Source: Tuwongella immobilis | Lineage (GTDB): Bacteria; Planctomycetota; Planctomycetia; Gemmatales; Gemmataceae | NCBI RefSeq assembly: GCF_901538355.1 | Contig: NZ_LR593887.1 | Location: 4,750,920 to 4,814,919, forward strand | DNA: 64,000 nucleotides | Direction: 5' to 3' | Notes under the pieces: model-generated | What the model saw: only the letters and a program-made list of their open reading frames with translations | What the model was told of the DNA's origin: nothing | The model's database searches: none | Position numbers and translations under genes: made by a program | In this document: positions 41,227 through 55,291 of the stretch, piece by piece | Position numbering within the stretch: the stretch's first letter is position 1 | Layout of the letters: each line of letters opens with the position of its first letter

Positions 41227-44200
41227 TCAACCCAGTGGTGATTCGTCACTCGGCGGCGCGAATGCCGAGAGCGGCAACGGCGCAAATGCGACCGAGTGGA
41301 TTTTACTCACCGGCGGCCGGAGTTGGGCCTGTTCCTGTTCGGACTCCAGCACCCAGAGTCGAATCGTACCATCCCAGCCCGCCGTGGCCAGGGTCTGCCC
41401 ATCGCTGGCCAGCGAAATCGCGCGAATCGATTCGCTATGCCCCCGATAGACGCGCATTTCGGTGCCGGTGATCAGATCCCACAGCTTCACGGTCATATCC
41501 CAGCTTGCGGAAATCAGGTGCTGCCCATCGTTCAAAAACGTGACCGCACTGACCGCAAACGAATGCCCCGTCGCATTGAAAATGCACTGATTCGTGGTCA
41601 GATCCCATAGCCGGATCATCTTATCCCACCCGCCGGTAATCAGCGTCAATCCATTGGGCGAAAATGCCGTCGCGGTCACCATCTTTTCATGGGCGCGGTA
41701 GCTGGCTTTCTCGCGGGAATCCTCCACATTCCACAGCTTCACCGTGCGATCCCAACTGCCCGACGCCAGCGATTGCCCATCGGGAGAAAAATCGACGCAG
41801 GCCACCGCCCCACGATGGCCAGTCAGCACCGATCGCGGCTTGCCAGTGGTCAAATCCCACAGCCGCACCGATTGATCCCAACTGGAGGATGCCAAGATCT
41901 TTCCATCGGGCGAAACCGCCAGCGCGGTCACATCCGCTTCGTGGCCCAGGAATTGCGTCAACACGCGGCCTGATTCGACATCCCACACTCGCACCGTGCG
42001 ATCGACCCCGGCGGTAATCAGCCGTTCGCCATCGGGGGTGAAAATCGCCGCGTTCACGTCCCCTTCATGGCCGGAGAGATTGCGGAACTCCGTGCCACCG
42101 GCCAAATCCCACAGCACAATCATGCCATCGGCCCCGACTCCGGCCAGCAGAATCCGCGTTTCTTTGGGCGGAACCGGTGGCGAGATCGGGCGTTGCGGAC
42201 TGACACTGCGCGTGGGGGTGGTCGCCTTCGGGCGAAGCGGCGGATTCGCCGGGCGTGGCGAGGCCGGCGGCAGCTTCCCACCCGGCAGCAGGGCGATTTC
42301 ATCATCCAAATTCAAATCAAACGCCGAGGGCCGCCGCAGATATTCCGGCGATGGCGGGGCCAACGGGCCATCCTCGTCATCTCCACCCGGCGTGGAAGTC
42401 GGCGCAGTCGCTGGCGGAGTCGGGCGTGCCGAATCCGAGCGCGACGGGGACGATTTCTCCAGCGGATTCTTGTCCGACGGCAATCGACGCCCCTGCGGCA
42501 GATTCCGCATATCGCTCGGCAATTGCATGTCGGCCAAACTTGGCATCCCCACATCCGACGCATTCGCTGCACCACCCGGCAGATCATCCGGCAACGCCAA
42601 ATCATCCGGCGAACTGCGGAACGCCGCCGAGAGTGGCATCTCCCCTTCGGGCAGGATGAATTCGCTGAACGACGGCATCGGAGTCGCCACTGGCGGCACA
42701 ACTGGCGGTGAAACGGGTGGCGGCGCAACTGGCGGTGGCGACATCACTTGCGGCGGCGCGATTGGCTCGACCGGCGGAGTCGCGGGAGCGAGGTTCATGA
42801 CGGGTTTGGAAGGCGATTTCACCAGGCGAGACGCGGCCGCGATCCCTTCGCCGAATGCCAGATTGGACAATTCCCCCCAGCGGATCGGCTCGTCGGTCGC
42901 GGCTTGGGCGGCTTCCAACTCGGCGGCCACCACTTTGGGATCGCCCAGCACATCGATCAGTTTGCCAAGATACGGCTCCCACAGCCGCAGCACCCCATCC
43001 ATGCCCGCCGAAACGAGCGTATGACCATCCGGCGAGAACGTCACCGAAGTGACCGCGCCACGATGCCCCTTGAGGCGGAATCGCTCTTGGCCGGTGATGC
43101 CGTGCCAGATGCCCACCGTCTGATCGCGGCCACCACTGGCCAAATTCGTCGCTTGCGGCGAGACCCGCACACAAGTCACGCCGGTCGGATGCCCCTCGAA
43201 TTGGCACCATTCTTCGAAAGTCGCCATATCCCACAGTTTAATCCGGCCATCATCGCTGGACGATGCCAAGGTCAAGCCATCGGGCGAGAACGACAGCGAT
43301 CGCACGGGGCTGGAATGGGCTTCGAGTCGTCGCAATTCGCGCACTCGGACCACATCCCAGATGCAGATTCGCCCATCTTGTCCGCCGGAAACGAGCATCT
43401 TTCCGTCTGGCGAAAAGCTAACGGTGTGTACCGGCCCTTCGTGCCCCGCGAGTGATGGCCCCGGCTTGCCTTCTTCGAGATACCACAGTTTGACAATGCC
43501 TTCGAGACTGGCGGAAACCAGCGTCCCAGAATCGGGCGAAAACATCAGCCCGGTAATGCGTTGCGGGTGGCCAGTAAGCTCCAACAGCGATTGCCGCGTG
43601 GGAATCTGCCAGAAGCGAATCGTGCCATCGTCACCGGCAGTGGCCAGAATTTCTTCATCGGTCGAGAATGCGAGCGCGAAGACGCCGCCGGTGTGCCCCT
43701 TGAAGGCGTGCGGCGGGTTGTTCTCGCCGGTGGTATACAGCCATACGGAGCCGTTCTGTCGGCCGGCCGCCAGGAATTTCCCCTGCGGACTGTATTGCAC
43801 CACCGTAAACGCCACGGGTGGTTCCGGTGCCAACGCGGCGGGCAGTTGTTGCGCGAGATCCGCCGACGATGGCCGGGAACGCGGCGTGACCAGCGCCGGC
43901 AACGATCCACTGGCACGGGGACTGGGCATGCCGGCATTCATCGGCAATTCCGATGCCGTCGCTGCACTCGGAGCAGTTGGCTCGCTCGGGGGCGCATTCT
44001 GGGGCGCATTCAGGGGCGCATTTTGCGGCGTGAGCGGCGATGCGGGCGCTTCCGTGGGCGCGGGCGGCACTTCTCGCATCGGCGGAGCCACGCCGGTTTG
44101 CTTGGCGGTGGGGACAATCGGCGACATTGGCACCGGCTGATTTGTTCCACCCGGCGGAATCAATCGCGGACGCTCCCGCACCAACTCCTCCCGCGCCAGA

Positions 44201-46308
44201 GGCCGAGTCGGCGCGGCGGCTTGCGGATCGCGCGATGCCTGCGGATTGCTGGCAGGTGCCCCCATGGGCCGATCGCCGGGCTTGCCCGAATTCGCACTCC
44301 CTGCAGACGACTGCGACGGCGCGGGCGAATCGGCCGTCGTGCCATCCGGCAGAAGCCAATCCGATTCCGGCGTGGCACCGGAGAACATATTCGCCAGCGA
44401 GGCATCCCCCGCGAACATCCCTGCCAACGGTTGATCCCCATCCAGCGACGGAATCTCCGAATCCGATCGCGGCGGAATCATCGCCTCGGGTCGCTCGAAT
44501 TCGCGGTCCATGGCGGGCGAGATGGGCATCGAGGCCGACGCGGGCCCCTGCGATTGCGGCACTTGGAAGGTGAGTCGCTGCAGCAAATTGCCATCCAACG
44601 ACCAGACCATTCCAAAGTGATCGCTCCCCAGCGAAATCACCCGCTGCCCATCGGGGGTAAACAGCACGCCAATCACCGCCGCCGAATGGCCGGTGAGTGT
44701 CGCCGTGCAAACCGCCGTTCGCGTGTTCCAGATGCGGATCGTGTGATCCCAACTCGCGGTCGCCACGGCAGTTCCGTCGGGGCTGACAGCAAGGCTGACG
44801 ATTTCCCCAGTGTGACCATGCAGCGTCTGCCATTCGGTGAAATCGTTGATATTCCACAGCTTCACCGAGTGATCCAAACTCCCCGACGCCAGAAGCGGTC
44901 GATTGCGGCAAAAACTCACCGACATGACATCGCCAGTGTGCCCTTCCAGCGTCGCCAGCGACTGGCCGGTCATCACCCGCCACACCCGCACCGATTTATC
45001 CCAACTTCCGCTGGCCAGCAACTGACTATCCGGCGAGAAATGCACACTCGTCACGCGGCGCGTGTGGCCGATCAATTGGCGGACTTCCGCCCCGGAATGC
45101 ACATGCCAGATGCGAACACTTTTGTCCCACCCCGCGCTGGCGAGGTAGTCGCCATTGGGCGAGAACGCCACCCCAGTGACCACGCCCGTGTGCCCCGACA
45201 GCACCCGCACACACTGGCCGCTATTGGGGTCCCAAAGTCGCAGCGTATTGTCCCAACTGGCACTGGCGAGCAGTTGCCCATCGGGTGAGAAGGCGACCGA
45301 ACTGACCACACCATTGTGACCGGTGAACGCCCGCAACGGACGCCCGCTGGGGAAATCCCACAGCAGAATCGATTTATCCCAACTCGCGGTTGCCAATCGG
45401 GTTCCATCCGGCGAGAGCGCCAGATGGGTCAAGTCGCCCTGGTGAGTCAAGGGAAACGGCGATTCGGTTGGCTCGAACGGTGCCACAGGTTTCTCCAGGA
45501 TCGCAACGGGAGCGAGTTCGGGGGAATGGTTCGGGGGTGATTCGGGAGACGATTCGGATGGTCGGGGGGGACGCCTCGCCGGGATCAATCCCAATCGGTC
45601 GGCGATTTGGCGATAGCCGCGGGCGACCACCGAGGTGGGGCTGCTCTGCACCACCGATTGCCCACGCAACACGGCTCGCCCAACTTCGGCATCGTGCGGG
45701 ATCACCGGTTCCAGCAGCGCCGCGCCAAGCGATTCGCGCATGGTGCGGGCCCATTCGCCCGCATCATTGCCACCGGGCGGCAAGGTGAGCACAATTCCGC
45801 GAAGCGAAATCGGGACGACGTTTCGCTCCCGAGCATCCCGCAAGCGCGTCAGGAAGCCCGGCAACGTGCGGATCGCGAACGCTTCGGCTCGCAGCACAAT
45901 CAGCAATTCCTCGCAGACTTGCAGCAGTCGTCGCAGTCCGGATTCTGCAATCGCCGGCGGAGAATCAATCACCAAACAATCGTAAGTTGCCGCGTAAGTT
46001 GGATTCGCAAGCGCGGCCCAAAAATCGGTCGTTGTCGGGGGATTCGTCGCATCCAGCTCAATTGCCGCAACATCCAAGTTGGATTCAACTTGCGACCAGA
46101 ATTGACCATGGTGCGCGATGCCGAAGGGGGGAATGCCAATTTGGGCACGATCCGGCGAGAGTCGCCACGCCGCCACCACACTTTGCAGCGGATCGGTGTC
46201 CACCAGCAAGATGCGCAGCCCCGCCTGGGCCGCTGCCGAGGCGAGATTGATCGCGGTGGTGGTCTTGCCCACTCCGCCTTTCTGGCTGGCGATCAACAGC
46301 TTGCGCAC
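41227..46308 (-). CDS. ParA/MinD-type ATPase fused to 21 WD40 repeats (three seven-bladed propellers)
   Basis: This 1693-residue cytoplasmic protein has an N-terminal ParA/MinD-like ATPase (about residues 1-245). It has the deviant Walker [14 protein letters not shown], switch [16 protein letters not shown] and Walker [12 protein letters not shown] Pro/Ser-rich linker leads to three WD40 blocks of seven repeats each: about residues 287-578, 826-1116 and 1381-1666. Repeats are close to 42 residues with recurring SPDG...LASxSWDxxVRLWD and GH signatures. Blocks are separated by long Pro/Ala/Ser-rich linkers. GTG at 46308 has GGAGG 9 bases upstream and gives [12 protein letters not shown]; the alternative GTG at 46332 adds 8 residues. 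A second ParA-like gene ends immediately upstream. ATP-switched scaffolding of partners is the most natural inference. Confidence 0.9.
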
Positions 46309-46332
46309 CCAACCATCCCTCCGCAACGGCAC

Positions 46333-47019: not shown

Positions 47020-47526
47020 TCACTCCCAATCCGGCCAGAAAAATGCGCGATGTTCCGGAGCCACCGGGGGAGATTCGCCGCCAGTCCAATTCGCCGAATT
47101 CGCCGCATCTGCCGCATCTGCCGATTCCGCCGCATCTGCCGATTCTGGCGGGGGTTGCGCATCCGACTCGGCCCGCAACTCCGACTCATCGCCGGATTCC
47201 GCCGATCGTCCCCAATCTGGCGGCAACACCAATTCGGGAGCATCGGCAAACCCGCTCCAATCCGCGTGCAACCATTCCGCCAACGGGATGCCTGATTCCG
47301 GCGTGCCCGCAGGTGGCTCATCCCACGATTCGGAATTGTCCGACGCCTCGTCATCGCTCGCATCATCATCGCTTGCATCTTCGGCCAATCCAGGAATGAT
47401 CCCCCCCATCCCCGGTAACGGCGGAATCGGTCGCGGAACCGGCCCCAGTCGCCCCAGCACCGCCGCGAGTTGCTGCAATTCCTGCTCCACCCAATCCGCC
47501 CAATCTGCGGGATGATCGGCGGTCAT
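47020..47526 (-). CDS. Acidic Asp/Ser/Ala-rich protein of unknown function
   Basis: This 168-residue protein starts with a short helix (DWADWVEQELQQLAAVLGRL) and a Pro/Gly-rich hinge (PVPRPIPPLPGMGG). A strongly acidic low-complexity region follows (EDASDDDASDDEASD), and another Ala/Asp/Ser repeat (ESADAAESADAADAANSANW) lies further on. It ends in HRAFFWPDWE. Tryptophans are frequent. It is not recognised. Its ATG overlaps the upstream kinase stop (ATGA), so it is translationally coupled. The many Ser residues in acidic context could be phosphorylated by the neighbouring kinases; this is inference. Confidence 0.75.
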   Translation of the reverse strand: MTADHPADWADWVEQELQQLAAVLGRLGPVPRPIPPLPGMGGIIPGLAEDASDDDASDDEASDNSESWDEPPAGTPESGIPLAEWLHADWSGFADAPELVLPPDWGRSAESGDESELRAESDAQPPPESADAAESADAADAANSANWTGGESPPVAPEHRAFFWPDWE

Positions 47527-49487
47527 ACGCGACCCCACGTCGGAATTTCGAAGGAATGAATCCGTTGCACCCCATCGGTTTCGCCGATCGCAAGTGCTTG
47601 CACGCCATCGGTCTCGAAAGCAGTGTAGCACGTTTCTGCGGGAAGTTTGCCGAGATTCTCACGCGGTTGCTCCCACCGCCCCCGCCACAGCTCCCCACTG
47701 GGACTCAGTCCCAACCAGCGCCCGACTTCGGCAGATGTCCCCGACTCGACCCACGGATGGATTCCCACCCATGCGAGCGGACCACCGATCGGCGTGATTT
47801 TCCCCATCCGCCAATCCAGAAGTCCCCACCGTGTCGAGGGATGCGCCATTTGCACCAACAGCCGCTCACTCCCCGGCCAACCGCCACCAATCGATTGAAT
47901 CGCATATTCCAACGTGCGTGCCTGTTGCGGAATCGGCGAGCCGAGCACCAATTGATCCCAATTCGCGCCGCAAATGAACAACAGCCGATCGCCGTCCAAC
48001 CAGCGCGCGGCAATCGGCCCGACTCGGTCGGCGTCCAACGGCCCCGTCGCCAGCGTCCGCCCATCGCTCACCGCCAGGAATTGCCAGAACGTCTCGCCCA
48101 GAAATGCCAGCCGATCGTCTGACGCCGCCAGACAGCGCGGCCGATCCCCCAGGCGGATCACCACCGAGCGTGCCCCCGTTCGCGGGCAGATCCGCTCCAG
48201 CGTTCGATCCGATGCCAGCCAGAGTTTCCCCGCACCGTCGCGGGTGACATCCAGCAGTTCCATCCCCACCAGTAACCGCGAGCGCGGCGTTTCGCTCCAA
48301 TCCAAGCGAAAACATCCCACCGATGTACAGGCCACGCCCGTGCGGGTGCCATCTCCGGAGTTGGTCACAAACAGCCGAAAACTCTCCACGCCCAAGAATC
48401 GCTGCTTCGTTTCGATACGTGGAATCTCTCGCGGCGAGCGCACGATGGGGACCGCCGCCGACACGGGTTCCGGCTCGGCGATCACCGCCGGAATCGCAGT
48501 CGCAGGAGTCACCGTCCAGTTCGTTGTCGTCGGCTGCCACTGCTGCAATCGCTGACAGACCGATTCCAGCGTTGGACGATCGGTCGCGGATTTGGCAAGC
48601 AGTTGCTCCAACAGCGCGACCCAATCGGCGGGTAACGATGCGGCAATTGGGGGCGATTGGCGAAGATGGGCCAGCGCGAGTTGTGCGGGTGCCCCTTCAA
48701 AGGGAAGATTCCCGTGTAACAATTCGAACAGCATCACCCCCAACGCATAGACATCGGAGGCGGGCGAAGTTTCGCCGTGGAATTGTTCGGGGGCCATGTA
48801 CGCGGGGGAACCGGAAATGGTCGGCAATTCGCCTTCGGGTGGCGTTCCACGGGAGATGGATCGAGCCAGGCCGAAATCGGCAAGTTTGAGACGAATCTGC
48901 GGATCATCCAACCGCGAAGACGGCTTGACCAGGAGCACGTTTTCCGGCTTGAGATCGCGATGCACCACCCCTTGCCGATGGGCCGCTTGCAATCCCAGGG
49001 CGATCTGAAGCCCCAACCGCGCGACCGATTCGAGGGGTAGGCGCCCCCCGGCCCGCCGCATTCGGCTGATGAGCGGTCGCAAACTACCACCGGGACAGTA
49101 TTCCAGAATCAGATAGCGGCGTGTTGGGCCAGCCTCCATCAGATTGATGATTCGCACCACATGCGGATCATTCAAGCGAAACAGAGCGGAGAGTTCGCGG
49201 TAGAAACTGCCGGACTGAGCGGAATGCTGTTCAAAGCATTTGAGGGCCACCGATTCGCCCGTTTGCCGATCGCGGGCATGCCACACCGTGGCATACGCTC
49301 CGGTTCCCAGATGCGTTTCGAGCGAATAGCGATCCCCGAGGTCCGCGAGAATCGCCGCACGAGCGGCAGAATGATCAGTTCCCGGAAAGATTTGCCCCGT
49401 GTACCAAGCATCGGAATCCGAAGAGGTGGTCACCGTCGGGAGTTCCCCGGCTTGCGAAGCCGATTCGGGGCCTGAATGCTGGCCCAA
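47523..49487 (-). CDS. Ser/Thr protein kinase with C-terminal propeller-like region
   Basis: This 654-residue Hanks-type kinase has no transmembrane segment. The kinase domain covers roughly residues 54-320: glycine loop LGTGAYATVWHA, Lys in VALKCFE, catalytic VVHRDLKPENVLL, DFGLARS, and APE in YMAPEQFHGE. All catalytic residues are intact. The last 300 residues have repeated beta-strand segments (LLDVTRDGAGKLWLASDRTL, RPRCLAASDDRLAFLG, WLDGDRLLFICG) suggesting a beta-propeller sensor. The ORF opens with TTG at 49487 without a clear ribosome site; GTG at 49433 is an alternative. It precedes the acidic protein with overlapping start/stop. Confidence 0.9.
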   Translation of the reverse strand: MGQHSGPESASQAGELPTVTTSSDSDAWYTGQIFPGTDHSAARAAILADLGDRYSLETHLGTGAYATVWHARDRQTGESVALKCFEQHSAQSGSFYRELSALFRLNDPHVVRIINLMEAGPTRRYLILEYCPGGSLRPLISRMRRAGGRLPLESVARLGLQIALGLQAAHRQGVVHRDLKPENVLLVKPSSRLDDPQIRLKLADFGLARSISRGTPPEGELPTISGSPAYMAPEQFHGETSPASDVYALGVMLFELLHGNLPFEGAPAQLALAHLRQSPPIAASLPADWVALLEQLLAKSATDRPTLESVCQRLQQWQPTTTNWTVTPATAIPAVIAEPEPVSAAVPIVRSPREIPRIETKQRFLGVESFRLFVTNSGDGTRTGVACTSVGCFRLDWSETPRSRLLVGMELLDVTRDGAGKLWLASDRTLERICPRTGARSVVIRLGDRPRCLAASDDRLAFLGETFWQFLAVSDGRTLATGPLDADRVGPIAARWLDGDRLLFICGANWDQLVLGSPIPQQARTLEYAIQSIGGGWPGSERLLVQMAHPSTRWGLLDWRMGKITPIGGPLAWVGIHPWVESGTSAEVGRWLGLSPSGELWRGRWEQPRENLGKLPAETCYTAFETDGVQALAIGETDGVQRIHSFEIPTWGRV

Positions 49488-49540: not shown

Positions 49541-50029
49541 TCACTCCCAAACGAACATCGACATAATCGATTGCACTTGCACGGTCGGATCGGTTTCGCG
49601 CGGTGCATTCGGATCACCGGCCTTCGGGGCATTCCGCCAATTGACCGCTTGCAGGAATGTCCCGGTCGGCTTGGACAAATCGACCGGTTCCGGTGGCAGA
49701 TTCTTGACCAGCGGCTCATCGATCGCCGGATCATCATCGAGCGACGCCGGTGCCGTCGGGACAACCACCGCCGGGGCGGGCGGCGCGACTGGTTCGGGGC
49801 GATTGGCCCAATTCACCGATTGCCAAAATTGCGTACCCGCCGAATTGGCAACGGGTTGCGGCAATCGAACTGGGGTGTAAACCACCTCAGTTTGAATCGG
49901 CGGAAGCTGATTGTTGACGACGGGGGTTCCCGAGGCCGGAATTTCGCGGCTGCCTCCGGGGAGAATTTCGGCCAGCAACTTCGAAATCTGGCTGACTTCG
50001 GGAACGGTTTCAGAGCGTGTCGGCAACAT
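49541..50029 (-). CDS. Pro-rich protein with duplicated VNW motif
   Basis: This 162-residue protein starts with a helix (PEVSQISKLLAEIL) and is otherwise Pro/Val/Ala-rich and probably disordered. Two copies of a short motif, GTQFWQSVNWANRP (residues 65-78) and GTFLQAVNWRNAP (123-135), stand out. They share the pattern GT-F-(W/L)-Q-(S/A)-VNW-(A/R)-N. It ends in a hydrophobic tail (SIMSMFVWE). AAGGA lies 7 bases before the ATG at 50029. The repeated motif looks like a docking or scaffold peptide. It lies between ferredoxin and kinase genes. I do not recognise a family. Confidence 0.75.
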   Translation of the reverse strand: MLPTRSETVPEVSQISKLLAEILPGGSREIPASGTPVVNNQLPPIQTEVVYTPVRLPQPVANSAGTQFWQSVNWANRPEPVAPPAPAVVVPTAPASLDDDPAIDEPLVKNLPPEPVDLSKPTGTFLQAVNWRNAPKAGDPNAPRETDPTVQVQSIMSMFVWE

Positions 50030-50071
50030 GGCACAATCCTTGGAGCATCGCGACCGGCGCAATCAACGGTT

Positions 50072-50539
50072 TCAGCTTCCTTTGAGCGATTCCACTTCGA
50101 CGTTCAATTCTTTGAGTTGTTCCAATCGGGTGCGGGTAATAATCTTCCCTTTTTCGATCAGAATTGAGCCGTTGATCGGATGCAAAATATTTTGGGCGGC
50201 CCGTTGCCCCAGCATCGACATCAGATCTTCGGCCCGTTCAATATACATCCCCTCGGGCAGTTGGACCACCAGACCATCGCCGAGAACGCGGCACTGGCAG
50301 GCCAGGCGCGAGGATTGATCGACGCCGGTGATGAACGATAAGGTCCGCGATTCCCGCGGGGTCATTTCGGTCAGTTGTTCCATGCCCGACTTGATATGGA
50401 CATGGCACGTCGCGCATAACCCCTTGCCACCACAGGCCATCAGCACATTCAGATTCTTGGCCAACAATGCCTGGAGCAAGTCCGTGCCGGTGGGAATGGC
50501 TTGGACTTCGTTAATTGGTTGGAATGTCAACGATTTCAT
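50072..50539 (-). CDS. 2Fe-2S ferredoxin with C-terminal extension
   Basis: This 155-residue electron carrier has cysteine ligands Cys36, Cys42, Cys45 and Cys81 in ACGGKGLCATC and ACQCRV, the plant/vertebrate-type Cx5Cx2C...C spacing. Residues 110-155 form an extension (NILHPINGSILIEKGKIITR, then a helix LEQLKELNVEVE) that is not part of the ferredoxin fold. Its ATG overlaps the stop of the heme-oxygenase-like gene, so the two are coupled. Heme oxygenases need an electron donor, often ferredoxin, so the pair is functionally coherent. Confidence 0.9.
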   Translation of the reverse strand: MKSLTFQPINEVQAIPTGTDLLQALLAKNLNVLMACGGKGLCATCHVHIKSGMEQLTEMTPRESRTLSFITGVDQSSRLACQCRVLGDGLVVQLPEGMYIERAEDLMSMLGQRAAQNILHPINGSILIEKGKIITRTRLEQLKELNVEVESLKGS

Positions 50540-51198
50540 GCGACCGGATTCTCCAGGGGAGCCTGCGTGGCGGTCGCACCGACGGTCTGGCCGGTTCGAG
50601 GCAGGGCTGCGTAAATGTGAAACAGTCCCGTCATCGTCTCAATGGCGGCTTCGGCCACTTGCTGCTGCAATTCCGCACTCAGTGGCAACGAATCGAGTGC
50701 GGATTTGAACGACATCCACCGAGCCACCTGATTCTGGCTTGCATCTAAATGATAATCAATGCCCTGCCCCGGTTCGACGGGCACTTGCAGGGCTTTGGCC
50801 ACCTGTTTGGCCAGGAGCCGCGAGCCCATCCGCGACCCTTCAAAAATATACAGGCAACCCAAGAGGGCAATCGGTTCGGACTGCGACCACTGCCGAATCT
50901 TGGCGATCAACGCTTCGGTTTCGGGGAGAATCGGCAACGCGGGACTGACCGTTGGAATTTTCGCCAAATCGGTCTGCAACGCCACGATGCGAGCCATTTC
51001 CGGTTGGAAGAGGTCGATCCGATTGCGGACCAACTCCGATTCCAGAACTTCATGCAACGCAAGCAGTTGCGTCAATAGATCCCGATAATCGTCGGCCAAC
51101 ACGGTCCCGGACGCAATCTGTTGGGGCATGGGCAGCCGTTCGAGCCGATCGTGCAGATCCGCCATCCCGGTCCGAATTTGGTGAACGAGTTCACTCAT
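50536..51198 (-). CDS. Heme-oxygenase-like protein
   Basis: This 220-residue all-helical protein fits the heme oxygenase family. LHDRLERLPM places a His at about residue 16, in the position of the proximal heme ligand. LLALHEVLESEL and the distal-helix-type motif LYIFEGSRMGSRLL match bacterial (BphO/HO-type) members. Such enzymes cleave heme to biliverdin, CO and iron. ATG at 51198 is preceded by GGGAG. The stop overlaps the ferredoxin ATG. No phytochrome is in the window, so the product's use is unknown. A heme-sensing non-enzymatic role is possible. Confidence 0.82.
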   Translation of the reverse strand: MSELVHQIRTGMADLHDRLERLPMPQQIASGTVLADDYRDLLTQLLALHEVLESELVRNRIDLFQPEMARIVALQTDLAKIPTVSPALPILPETEALIAKIRQWSQSEPIALLGCLYIFEGSRMGSRLLAKQVAKALQVPVEPGQGIDYHLDASQNQVARWMSFKSALDSLPLSAELQQQVAEAAIETMTGLFHIYAALPRTGQTVGATATQAPLENPVA

Positions 51199-51229
51199 GG
51201 CAACCTGCTCCCGCGATCCCATAATCGAA

Positions 51230-53854
51230 TTACGATTCTAATTCACCCGCATCGGATGGGGCATCACTCCGAGTCGATCGGCCAGCCCCGCGCAACAACG
51301 GATCAGCGACCGTTCGTGGGGATGCCGGCGGTGCGGGCGATTGAACCTCTTCTGCGGCAATCGCTTGCGTACCGGCTTGGCTGATGGATTCGGTTAACCC
51401 CGTGGGAACGGCACGCTCTTCGATCCACCCCGGTAGCATTTGCAATGCCTGCAACGCCAACCGAAGTTCGGTATACGATTGATAGCGGTCTTTCGGGTCT
51501 TTTGCCATCATGCGCGATAAAACTGCGGAAACTTCCGGGCGAAGTTCCGAAACCAACTCGTGAGCGGGCCGCGCAGTTTCCCGACTATGCTTGTACAAGA
51601 CTTCGATTCGCGACCGGCCCTCGAACGGCAGCACCCCGGTCAGCACATGATAAAACGTGCAACCGAGTGCATAAATATCGGCACGATGGTCAATCTGCGA
51701 TCCGGAAACGGCTTGCTCGGGTGCCATGTACGCAATGGTTCCAGCCATTCGATCGCCGGAATTCGACACAACCCCTTGATCCGAATCCCCTTCGGACACC
51801 AGCACCGCCAACCCGAGATCCGCGAGTTTGGCAACCCCATCGCGGGTGAGCAGAATGTTCGCGGGCTTAATATCGCGGTGAACAATGCCCATCCGCAGGG
51901 CCGCCGACAAGCCATCGACAATCTGGAGAATCGTCTCCACCGCGCGATCAAGCCGCAACCGTCCCGATTGTTGAATCAACTCGGCGAGACTGAGCCCCTC
52001 CACATATTCCAGCACCAGGAAGGTGCAGGCGGGCGTCTCTTCAAAGTCCCACACCCGCACGATATGCGGATGATTCAACTGAGCCAACAGACGGGCTTCG
52101 GAGCGGAATTGCCGAATCTGCGTCTGTTCGGTGTGATCCATCGCGCTGCTGAGCACTTTGACCGCCACCGAAATATTCAACGATTGATGCACCGCTCGAA
52201 AGACGATCCCGGTCCCACCCTGGCCAATCTTTTCGGTGAGCAGGCATTTACCCAGCAGTTGGCCGGTCTCGATCAGCCCCGGAATGCGTGGTGGTTCGGG
52301 CGCCCGTGCGACCGTTCCGTAGGGATTCCCCCGCTCCCGAGGCGGCGAACTGCCGGTCGACATCGGCATCATCGGCTGGCTGGACGCGGTCGAGCCGCTT
52401 CGCAGAATGCCGGAACGCGACGCATTCATGGTCGGCAGAGCCACACTGCCCAGAGTTTTGGCGGCGTTGGGGTCGCTTTCCAGCATTTCTTCCAACAGAA
52501 TCTGCAATTCCTGCACCAGATGCGCCATGCTGACCACGCTGCGATCACGCCGCAACACCCGGTGAATCAACCGTCGTGCATCGGCGGGCAGTTTGGGCCG
52601 TTTGGCGTTCGGATCATCGGCAGGAATTCCGAGCGCAACCCCGCAACTGGTCGTAAGATCCGTCAACGGTGCCTGTCCACCCAACAGATAGTGATAGGTG
52701 GCGATGAGCAACTCCATGTCATCCCGCAAATGCTCGGCCGTGAGCGCCACCGCTGCCACCGGATCTTGATCCGGGAGCGGAAAGCGAAAATCGACCAGCA
52801 CCACTTTCCCCTGGGCATCCAGCAGCAGATTGCTGGGCTTCAGATTGGCGTGAACGATTTGCCGATCGTGTGCCAGGGCAAGGAGTTGCGCCACTTCGAG
52901 GACGATTCGTGTCGCCTCGGCTGCGGGCAACGGGCCATGATTGCGAATGCGATCTTCCAGCGATCCCGGACGAACCAGCGGCATCGCACAAAAGACCGCA
53001 GAAGGATCTTGGGCAATGGCGTAAACCGAGATGGCAGCAGCCGTTTCGAGGCGAGCGGAGATCCCGGCTTCGCGGCAGAATCGCTGCACCCACCCAGCAC
53101 CGAGCCGCGCAATCTCGGGATTCAGCACTTTCACGGCGACCATGCGATCGAGGAGGAGATCCTCGGCTTCAAACACGGCTCCGCGTGGTCCGATGCCAAC
53201 CAATCGCGTTAATCGATAGGTCTGATTCAGCACCTGCCCGACCAGCGATTCGATCGGCGGCGGCGAATCCGAACGTGTTTTGTCTTGGGAGGTTACGCCC
53301 GAATCACCACTCATCGCCGAGCGGCCATCGCGTCCCTGTTGCCGTTGGGCTGTGGCAGCACGTCCCACACCGGAATCACTCGATGAACGAGCGACAGGCG
53401 ACGCGGGCGGCTCCATGGCCAATGCCGGCTGGATTACGGTATCCATGCGGGTGACGACGGTCGGAATCATCGTCTGATAATTGGTCGGCGTCGCTTGGCT
53501 CGAGGACGGCGGTTTCGGCGGCGCATCCAACGGCAGCGCATCGAGTTTCGACTTGCCGGTGGAGGTCAGAATGAGCGGACTCAGGGGCGGATCGACCTCG
53601 CCGATACTGGCCGCATCGAGCAAATCGGGGGCATTGGGGGTGAGAATCCCCTGGCGAATCAGGAAATCGACGAGCGACTCGTGCGGCTCACCATCGGCAT
53701 GCCACCAATTTTCGACCGCTTTGAGCCGGGGAATTCCATAGCGAAGTTCTTCGCGCCAAACTTGCATGGCAAGTTGGTCGATGGGATTGAGAATCCGGTC
53801 GTCTCCGCTGGGGCGTCGGGCACCAGGAGTCGGATAGGTGGGGGGCACACTCAC
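51230..53854 (-). CDS. Tandem Ser/Thr kinase: N-terminal pseudokinase, C-terminal active kinase
   Basis: This 874-residue soluble protein carries two protein-kinase folds. The first keeps VAVKVL, but HRD is replaced by HAN (VHANLKPSNLLL, about 52841-52860) and DFG by DFR (VDFRFPLPD). The glycine loop is degenerate (GIGPRGAVFEA). The second has GQGGTGIVFRAVH, VAVKVL, VHRDIKPANILL, DLGLAV and YMAPEQ, so it is complete. The N-terminal 180 residues are Pro/Ser-rich with a small folded part (WREELRYGIPRLKAVENWW). GTG at 53854 with AGGCG upstream is my choice; a TTG at 53953 would add 33 residues. It heads the minus-strand cluster. Confidence 0.9.
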   Translation of the reverse strand: MSVPPTYPTPGARRPSGDDRILNPIDQLAMQVWREELRYGIPRLKAVENWWHADGEPHESLVDFLIRQGILTPNAPDLLDAASIGEVDPPLSPLILTSTGKSKLDALPLDAPPKPPSSSQATPTNYQTMIPTVVTRMDTVIQPALAMEPPASPVARSSSDSGVGRAATAQRQQGRDGRSAMSGDSGVTSQDKTRSDSPPPIESLVGQVLNQTYRLTRLVGIGPRGAVFEAEDLLLDRMVAVKVLNPEIARLGAGWVQRFCREAGISARLETAAAISVYAIAQDPSAVFCAMPLVRPGSLEDRIRNHGPLPAAEATRIVLEVAQLLALAHDRQIVHANLKPSNLLLDAQGKVVLVDFRFPLPDQDPVAAVALTAEHLRDDMELLIATYHYLLGGQAPLTDLTTSCGVALGIPADDPNAKRPKLPADARRLIHRVLRRDRSVVSMAHLVQELQILLEEMLESDPNAAKTLGSVALPTMNASRSGILRSGSTASSQPMMPMSTGSSPPRERGNPYGTVARAPEPPRIPGLIETGQLLGKCLLTEKIGQGGTGIVFRAVHQSLNISVAVKVLSSAMDHTEQTQIRQFRSEARLLAQLNHPHIVRVWDFEETPACTFLVLEYVEGLSLAELIQQSGRLRLDRAVETILQIVDGLSAALRMGIVHRDIKPANILLTRDGVAKLADLGLAVLVSEGDSDQGVVSNSGDRMAGTIAYMAPEQAVSGSQIDHRADIYALGCTFYHVLTGVLPFEGRSRIEVLYKHSRETARPAHELVSELRPEVSAVLSRMMAKDPKDRYQSYTELRLALQALQMLPGWIEERAVPTGLTESISQAGTQAIAAEEVQSPAPPASPRTVADPLLRGAGRSTRSDAPSDAGELES

Positions 53855-53953: not shown

Positions 53954-54265
53954 CTCAATTCCCGGTCCAAACGACCGATTTTCCCGTTCTTCCGGGCAGT
54001 TTCATCGATTGATCGCATTGGAATTTGCCTGATTTTGTTGCCAGATCCCAATTTCGTTGTGGCAGCAAATCCCGCCTTCCGAACTGGCCTAGTTCCGCCT
54101 GGGCAAATCTGGCAAAATCGTTGGGAACACGAGGCGAAGGATTGCCACCCCGCACGCATTCGCGGCATACGAACCGAAATCATCGGCCGACCATCCAAGC
54201 GTGTCGATGCATCCCCGAGTGTTCGCCCGAATGTGTCGCTCGATCGCCAGCAAGGAGCAGGCAAC
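53954..54265. other. Divergent intergenic region between kinase cluster and phosphatase gene
   Basis: About 310 to 410 bases, depending on the kinase start. It should hold the promoter of the 39.5-53.9 kb cluster and that of the phosphatase, but no strong -35/-10 pair stands out. A 9-bp inverted repeat TTGCCAGAT/ATCTGGCAA (54038-54046, 54107-54115) encloses 60 bases that contain a smaller hairpin GAACT/AGTTC. This could be a structured leader or operator pair. No gene is visible. Confidence 0.45.
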
Positions 54266-55291
54266 ATGCAGACGAAGATCCCATTCTCGATTCGGGCAAC
54301 GGTCGAGCGTGTCCCGATGTCCCTTCGTCGAGTCGGTCGCGTGCTGGTGGTTGTCGTATTTGCGTTCCTGGTGGCGGAATTGCTGCGGGTCGTGGCGTTT
54401 CGCAATTGGCACTCGGTCATTCCTGACCAAGTTTATCGTTCGGCTCAACTTTCGGAATCTGCCCTTCAGGAAGTCATCGCCACGCATCAGATTCGCACGG
54501 TGCTCAATCTCCGCGGATTCTGCGGCGACTTCGATTGGTATCGAGCCGAGATGCGGGCGACGAACGCGGCGGGTGTCTCGCACGAAGATATTACCCTGTC
54601 GGCATCGCGACTGCCGCCGCCGGGCGAACTCCGCCGATTGCTGGAAGTCTTGGATCGCAGCGAGTTTCCGATTCTGATGCACTGCCGACGCGGGGCCGAC
54701 CGAACGGGATTAGCCGCCGCCTTGACCGTGCTGCTGTTCACCGATTCCACCTTGGAACAAGGATTAGCACACTGTTCCATGCGATTTGGGCATACCGGCA
54801 TCGGCCCGGCAGCAGCCATGGACCGCTTCTTTGAACTCTATCAGGAATATCTGACCAAATTGCAAGTGCCCCACTCCCCTGAACGGTTGCGAACCTTCAT
54901 TCGCTCGGATTATTGTCCCGACGATGCCAAGGGGGATCTGGAAGTCGAAACCATCGCATCGCCCATTCGGGTCGGTCAGCCGTGGAACCTCCGCGTGAAG
55001 GCGACCAACCGATCGATCCGCGATTGGCGGTTTCAGCCCGGATTGGCCACGGGCGTGCATGCCTTGTTCCAACTCATTCGAGAAGATGGGAGCATTGCCC
55101 AGCGCGGGATTGCCGGGCAATTCCATCGCATCGTTCCGCCGGGCGAATCGATCTCGTTACTGCTACCGATCGTCCCGCCCGAACAGCCCGGGCAATACGC
55201 ATTGGTGGTGGAACTCATCGCCGCCGACCGGACCGCATTCGGCCAACTCGGAGGCGCCCCCCTCCAATTGATGGTCACTGTCCAACCCTGA
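54266..55291 (+). CDS. Membrane-anchored dual-specificity/tyrosine phosphatase-like protein
   Basis: This 341-residue protein has one N-terminal transmembrane helix (RVGRVLVVVVFAFLVAELLR). A phosphatase domain follows with a DSP-type catalytic loop HCRRGADRTG (CX5R) and upstream general-acid region. The N-terminal segment DQVYRSAQLSESAL and VLNLRGF is typical of bacterial tyrosine/DSP-like phosphatases. The last 110 residues form an immunoglobulin-like beta domain (GQPWNLRVKATNRSIRDW). AAGGAG lies 10 bases before the ATG. Transcribed away from the kinase cluster, it could oppose the kinases, but the membrane anchor suggests an envelope role. Confidence 0.87.
   Translation: MQTKIPFSIRATVERVPMSLRRVGRVLVVVVFAFLVAELLRVVAFRNWHSVIPDQVYRSAQLSESALQEVIATHQIRTVLNLRGFCGDFDWYRAEMRATNAAGVSHEDITLSASRLPPPGELRRLLEVLDRSEFPILMHCRRGADRTGLAAALTVLLFTDSTLEQGLAHCSMRFGHTGIGPAAAMDRFFELYQEYLTKLQVPHSPERLRTFIRSDYCPDDAKGDLEVETIASPIRVGQPWNLRVKATNRSIRDWRFQPGLATGVHALFQLIREDGSIAQRGIAGQFHRIVPPGESISLLLPIVPPEQPGQYALVVELIAADRTAFGQLGGAPLQLMVTVQP

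Follow-up and report, generated by a model that had tools for sequence, protein, structure and literature searches.

What might a kinase fold stripped of its catalytic residues contribute when it stands directly in front of an intact kinase in one bacterial protein? The question is raised by a gene of the planctomycete Tuwongella immobilis (assembly GCF_901538355.1), which lies between positions 4,750,920 and 4,814,919 of contig NZ_LR593887.1, the whole 64,000-nucleotide stretch analysed here and called the window, and which encodes a protein with a degraded first kinase domain (D1) and a complete second one (D2) (Table 1). A preliminary description had proposed that D1 is an inhibitory or allosteric pseudokinase resembling that of the Janus kinases (JAK). 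Its observation is partly confirmed, with one error, and its interpretation, partly supported, is plausible; two features go beyond it, namely a deletion in the activation segment of D1 and a bilin-gene context, the latter being more informative than the tandem itself. We see about an even chance that D1 gates or targets D2, that D2 phosphorylates proteins of a bilin-gene cluster, and that the gene run to which the tandem belongs is a remnant of such a cluster.

The two domains lie in one uninterrupted open reading frame (ORF) with two Pkinase stretches, and the HAN and DFR motifs originally read in the first fold are indeed present. D1 was set beside the D1 of an ortholog and 38 active-type kinase domains from the fetched loci. 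At 30 positions, 90% or more of these kinases agree; 16 of the 30 are retained in both D1 copies and eight are missing from both. Those kept include G220, G222, G225, V227, V239, A240, the β3 lysine K242, the Mg-binding N342 and the DFG aspartate D355, and those lost are the Arg and Asp of HRD, the Gly of DFG together with the Ala two positions on, the GT-motif Gly, the Pro of APE, an αF Gly and a late Arg. The αC Glu is present in the window D1 and is Ala in the ortholog. The glycine loop had been described as degenerate, a claim that we reject because the GIGPRG loop, G220-I-G222-P-R-G225-A-V227 in the window, is a full GxGxxGxV in both copies. The distance from the DFG Asp to the αF Asp is only 25 residues in D1 and 24 in the ortholog, compared with 38-68 in the 38 kinases, so that most of the activation loop and the P+1 region of D1 is missing. 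The match of D1 to PF00069 (E 1.9e-21) covers profile positions 1-142 alone. An alternative catalytic Asp nearby had been named as an observation that would speak against a pseudokinase. In the alignment, where alone it was sought, no conserved substitute is seen ahead of N337, since the nearest Asp on that side, D330, is Ser in the ortholog. Judging from the residues that it retains, D1 is probably still able to bind nucleotide.

The ortholog, which belongs to another genus and whose D1 is 37% identical, is found on contig G002:C130 (locus L105, record JAOAAM010000158.1) of a Gemmataceae metagenome-assembled genome, isolate SKW148. It was revealed by using the N-terminal half of the protein as query, the whole-protein search (E <= 1e-80) having given D2-side matches alone outside the window. 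Its D1 has HAN, DFA and the 24-residue segment in a reading frame that is kept. Because HAN and the short segment recur in another genus, the state of D1 reflects more than chance, and because HAN, DFA and the 24-residue segment are kept at 37% identity, D1 is, as far as its sequence tells, a maintained pseudokinase. This agrees with a published definition of bacterial Ser/Thr pseudokinases, by which the β3 Lys, the HRD Asp, the DFG Asp or several of these are lost (PMC12599244), as in both copies the HRD Asp has become Asn while Lys and the DFG Asp are kept. One could instead regard D1 as a relic of an earlier kinase fusion, now functionless and in decay, and its faster evolution (89 of 244 aligned positions identical, versus 140 of 249 for D2) and long branch in the tree point that way; however, the loss is patterned, with nucleotide-binding positions kept and catalytic ones gone in both genera, the frame is kept in both, and the window D1 is predicted to fold, which makes such a leftover highly unlikely.

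An AlphaFold2 model of D1 built from this alignment shows a kinase fold (mean predicted local distance difference test score 89, predicted template modelling score, pTM, 0.88). The closest solved fold is PknB of M. tuberculosis (Z 25.0, root-mean-square deviation 2.6 over 227 residues, 27% identity), an active kinase, whereas D1 is devoid of the catalytic base and has lost the greater part of its activation segment. The top rows of the structure comparison are all kinase-type, in a search in which no solved pseudokinase was deliberately compared, and StkP and PknB are the leading matches by sequence. These results bear on a further possibility, that D1 performs some other ATP-dependent chemistry, AMPylation- or glutamylation-like, to which we assign a very slim probability. 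The retention of nucleotide-binding residues beside a lost phosphotransfer base would suit it, and there are precedents in SidJ, SdjA and SelO, pseudokinases with other activities (PMC12599244), but the short activation segment gives no sign of a substrate site, and in Pfam, NCBIfam and PDB alike D1 is best matched by PknB-type kinases and not by members of those families. The ActPs2 group of bacterial pseudokinases shares the change of the HRD Asp to Asn with D1 (PMC12599244), but is described there as having Arg for the β3 Lys, a very long activation loop and, in most cases, no DFG, whereas D1 retains the DFG Asp and, in both copies, K242, and with 24-25 residues has no long loop insertion.

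The second fold was described as fully catalytic, with which its motifs agree. D2 matches PF00069 with an E-value of 4.7e-55 over profile positions 4-253, and its motif set is complete (GxGxxG, VAVK, HRDIKPAN at 659, DLG and GTIAYMAPEQ); the Leu of DLG, where DFG is usual, is found in 9 of the 38 reference kinases as well. From these motifs D2 is presumably an active Ser/Thr kinase. Elsewhere, Pkinase domains holding the K, D and D sites have been classed as functional (PMC11032199). In a quick tree of 80 rows, D2 falls inside a clade of cluster kinases (20 rows, SH-aLRT support 99) and D1, on a long branch, stands apart from it. When D1 and the D2 clade were forced together, the tree scored above the free search (p-AU 0.984); because the tree search was not exhaustive and the D1 branch is long, we make no claim on D1 as a copy of D2. 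A short N-terminal domain matches in 12 ORFs of the kinase family of D2, that of the window counted, and the G002 ortholog is unmatched. In a structure model of the tandem, D1 and D2 are unplaced relative to each other (pTM 0.51) and joined by a disordered linker.

The order of the domains, in which one chain carries a pseudokinase immediately before an active-type kinase, is that of JAK. The proposal of such an arrangement in a bacterial protein is supported by the sequence, by its conservation in another genus and by the confident kinase-fold model of D1. In JAK, the pseudokinase JH2 precedes the active kinase JH1, FERM and SH2 domains precede the tandem, and JAK2 has HGN. D1 is alike in its position, in the replacement of the catalytic Asp by Asn and in a nucleotide site that is kept, but the window domains are PknB-like, the activation segment is much shorter and there is no evidence of descent; a Pfam scan of all 874 residues (E up to 1) found kinase-fold families alone, with neither FERM nor SH2 before the tandem.

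In this genome, the tandem is rare and pseudokinases are not. The genome, a single contig of 6.69 Mb, has 116 Pkinase matches, and the frame of the tandem is the only one with two whole-domain-type matches, as two other frames with two rows each hold halves of one domain. A survey of 117 distinct matches, read by eye and including several fragments short of the motif, with three weak Pkinase matches left out, gave six that lack Asp at the HRD place (HAN in D1, HGL twice, HGM, HGG and HGE). Besides D1, the candidate pseudokinases, none in tandem, are L236, L245, L258, L259 and L260, the first two of which (own genome, ~4.816 and 0.344 Mb) are kinase domains with HGLLKPSN for HRDxKPxN. Beyond this genome, a profile of the two D1 sequences was searched against an even sample of 397 genomes of the class, with the six best candidates scored per genome. 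The window scored 5.5e-153 and G002 4.5e-142, the latter by construction, as G002 supplies one of the two profile sequences, and the next match, at 8.3e-44, is already in the range of ordinary kinases, leaving 2 of 397 genomes. With a single sequence, the N-terminal half of the protein, as query, G002 had also come first after the window (1.6e-35; next 5.9e-30). Among 308 kinase ORFs in the fetched loci, a number that counts overlapping copies and 80 own-genome stretches of ~1 kb, too short for a tandem, two overlapping kinase domains per ORF were found solely in copies of these two genes. The claim that the arrangement is uncommon in bacteria thus holds for its own genome and for the class sample, which is as far as the survey extends. 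Among the titles listed by our literature searches on pseudokinases in planctomycetes, on tandem bacterial pseudokinases and on bacterial proteins with two kinase domains, none concerned such a tandem.

The context of the kinase family of D2 is more telling. We fetched 78 loci and counted the 14 of this family (L103-L115 and L117); L116, L118 and the remaining 62 were less similar and were not counted, and the domain scan covered L103-L118. Some of the 14 share an assembly (L103/L104/L108, L106/L114 and L107/L117), and those closest to D2 carry mostly Gemmataceae labels. Genes for V4R proteins and for BBAG, a phycobilisome-like globin, stand beside the kinase in 9 of the 14, and eight of these nine also have heme oxygenase and Fer2, the exception, without either, being L105, the locus of the ortholog; the other five are L107, with the kinase at a contig end, L108, L109, L111 and L114. 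Seven loci (L104, L106, L110, L112, L113, L115 and L117) open with the kinase and continue with heme oxygenase, Fer2 and V4R, then one or two phycobilisome-like globins, another V4R and a second kinase. A different layout, in which there are two globins and the kinase comes last, occurs in G016, G027 and G046. G004, G030, G032, G033 and G050 also have a bilin reductase (PF05996), placed either between the kinase and heme oxygenase genes or directly behind heme oxygenase; in L106 (G032) and L110 (G050) the bilin cluster genes stand side by side.

The association also holds across genomes. Of 95 genomes of the family, 11 have D2 relatives (E <= 1e-80, nine candidates scored per genome), 19 have BBAG (PF00502) and 10 have both (hypergeometric P 9e-8, which overstates the evidence because related genomes are not independent). 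The bilin reductase is in seven of the 95, six of them among the 11 (P 4e-6). The seventh reductase genome, G004, has a family kinase in a full cluster, below the threshold (L281). In 9 of the 11 genomes a BBAG globin lies within 10 kb of the D2 relative on one contig, those left over being G005, where the two are on different contigs, and G094, which has no globin.

In three of these loci (L103, L106 and L113), Fer2 is fused N-terminal to the kinase, each cluster also having a standalone Fer2, and the fused domains are homologous to the 2Fe-2S protein of the window. As fused partners often act together, these fusions are the best sequence evidence for an interaction between kinase and Fer2. 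They also lend weight to the possibility that D1 is a docking scaffold alone, which recruits V4R, BBAG or Fer2, or dimerises the kinase, with nucleotide playing no part, because here a partner-type module takes the place N-terminal to D2, and a tandem model that leaves the domains unplaced is of the same tenor. Nucleotide-binding residues kept at 37% identity would, however, be unneeded in a pure scaffold, and we regard it as possible but doubtful. The window Fer2 is nearest to standalone ones, with 74% identity to the standalone cluster Fer2 of L117, and its origin by splitting off from a fused Fer2 is not supported; a tree that places it among the three fused domains can be neither affirmed nor dismissed (p-AU 0.458).

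In the window, the tandem gene is the first of five genes on one strand, followed by heme oxygenase, the 2Fe-2S protein, a small protein X and a second kinase, with gaps of at most 53 bp when the longest ORFs are taken (Table 1). Protein X has a repeated F(W/L)Q(S/A)VNW-type motif, which by eye is seen also in L062, in an ORF close to its BBAG gene. Just past the operon-like run, a protein of 1701 residues (41227-46332, minus strand) has 19 WD40 stretches in Pfam, and divergent from the kinase gene lies a dual-specificity/tyrosine phosphatase-like gene (54254-55291, plus strand; PF13350, E 5.6e-9; HCRRGADRTG), a possible opposing phosphatase. Elsewhere in the genome, a V4R-BBAG-V4R set stands at 3.78 Mb, 8 kb from a D2-family kinase, a second set near 1.09-1.10 Mb comprises Fer2, two V4R, two BBAGs and three kinases, and the bilin reductase lies near 79 kb. 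By eye, a hybrid sensor histidine kinase (L081, 3371-5767) stands beside the second BBAG set.

Table 1. Coordinates of the tandem kinase protein, its parts and the genes associated with it (window positions, except for the loci L080 and L081)
Feature	Position	Strand	Remark
Pseudokinase-kinase protein, 874 aa	51230..53854	-	Uninterrupted ORF; start uncertain: GTG 53854, frame open to TTG 53953
N-terminal domain, residues 41-88 (~50 residues)	53591..53734	-	Occurs also in family members with one kinase domain
D1 pseudokinase domain, residues 204-460	52475..53245	-	Pfam match, alignment, fold model
HAN instead of HRD, residues 335-337	52844..52852	-	Alignment
DFR instead of DFG, residues 355-357	52784..52792	-	Alignment
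Linker D1-D2, ~residues 476-525	52280..52429	-	Low confidence, no secondary structure in model
D2, complete Ser/Thr kinase domain, residues 528-797	51464..52273	-	Pfam, motifs, tree; bilin-cluster kinase family
Heme oxygenase (PF01126, E 3.5e-22)	50536..51222	-	7 bp downstream of kinase gene; only PF01126 match of the genome
2Fe-2S ferredoxin-like protein (PF00111, E 1.4e-10), conserved C-terminal extension	50072..50539	-	4 bp overlap with heme oxygenase ORF
Small protein X, no Pfam match	49541..50062	-	Weak match (4e-7) to ORF between V4R and BBAG in L103
Second Ser/Thr kinase (HRDLKPEN)	47523..49487	-	At the place of the cluster-closing kinase in relatives
Own-genome BBAG/V4R set, one globin	L080 3503-5488		
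Own-genome BBAG/V4R set, two globins, own Fer2	L081 5644-9152		

Here we propose that the five-gene run, with the kinase first, is probably a remnant of the bilin/V4R/BBAG cluster of the family. D1, itself without phosphate transfer, would most likely act on D2 as a regulatory or docking module that responds to nucleotide, and on binding it would gate D2 or hold its target; the tandem may in this way respond to bilin, light or redox state. D2 would phosphorylate the cluster's own proteins, likeliest first the neighbouring 2Fe-2S protein, in parallel with SpkG of Synechocystis and ferredoxin 5 (Fd5, slr0148). The partner role is supported by the kinases flanking the clusters and the Fer2-kinase fusions, which are evidence for a conserved partner of the gene set and name a candidate substrate.

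Two known systems invite comparison. The spkG gene (slr0152) is the last of slr0144-slr0152, an operon which, like the gene sets of the D2 kinase family, combines a Ser/Thr kinase gene with Fe-S, V4R and BBAG genes, and Fd5 phosphorylation is absent in the spkG mutant (PMC11863333). SpkG is listed without extra domains in the available part of PMC2176072, and that of PMC11863333 mentions no pseudokinase for it, whereas the window has the tandem and a heme oxygenase, with V4R and BBAG elsewhere. In non-photosynthetic bacteria, Planctomycetes among them, clusters that combine an Fe-S protein with BBAG and two V4R, in some cases with heme oxygenase too, have been reported with pre-PcyA bilin reductases, with Planctomycetes among the pre-1 hosts, and cyanobacterial genes of the slr0144-slr0149 type have been traced to such bacterial clusters, the adjacent slr0150-slr0152 having been set aside for want of conservation evidence (PMC10151467). 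The relatives described here share this composition, but the word kinase occurs once in the main text of PMC10151467, in its references, whereas here two kinases flank the set, one of them with a pseudokinase. A role for a kinase in a gene set of this kind would agree with the kinases described here. Our searches of the literature found PMC10151467 alone on V4R, phycobilisome and heme oxygenase in planctomycetes, and none that joins a kinase with Fer2, V4R and heme oxygenase.

Several points weigh against the reading that D1 gates or targets a D2 acting on bilin-cluster proteins. The pre-1 arrangement is not found in the window, where heme oxygenase and the Fe-S protein adjoin the kinase and V4R, BBAG and bilin reductase lie away from it, near 3.78, 1.09 and 0.08 Mb. 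In G002 (83% complete) the pseudokinase-kinase stands beside V4R-BBAG-V4R in a genome with no PF01126 or PF05996 match and with distant Fer2 matches alone (best E 1.5e-9), and its congener G003 (75% complete) is likewise without PF01126, PF05996 or a close Fer2, and has V4R-BBAG-V4R without this kinase beside it. Both assemblies are incomplete. Fer2 thus cannot be the partner in every case; its standing as an obligatory partner is weakened, and it is hardly the only partner of the tandem form. None of the other 13 of the 14 family loci has a second kinase domain in the same ORF, so D1 is not needed for the core role of the family. Of the 19 genomes with BBAG, nine lack a D2 relative at the threshold, although G004, with its family kinase in a full cluster, is among them. 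Finally, the likeness of D2 to SpkG is one of gene context, and the enzymatic activity of SpkG itself is unverified according to PMC11863333.

A bolder view would place an ancestral pair of the SpkG-ferredoxin 5 kind in planctomycete bilin sensing, older than photosynthetic phycobilisomes, with the kinase of two lineages having gained a nucleotide-binding, gating pseudokinase, a bacterial JAK-like switch; we consider this unlikely. Bacterial pseudokinases are experimentally largely unexplored (PMC12599244), and the tandem, in which a pseudokinase is joined to the kinase that is its likely client, in an operon-like run with the likely substrates, offers a convenient model for the control of an active kinase by a dead one. 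The tandem is thus a candidate switch for pigment- or redox-linked signalling in non-photosynthetic bacteria.

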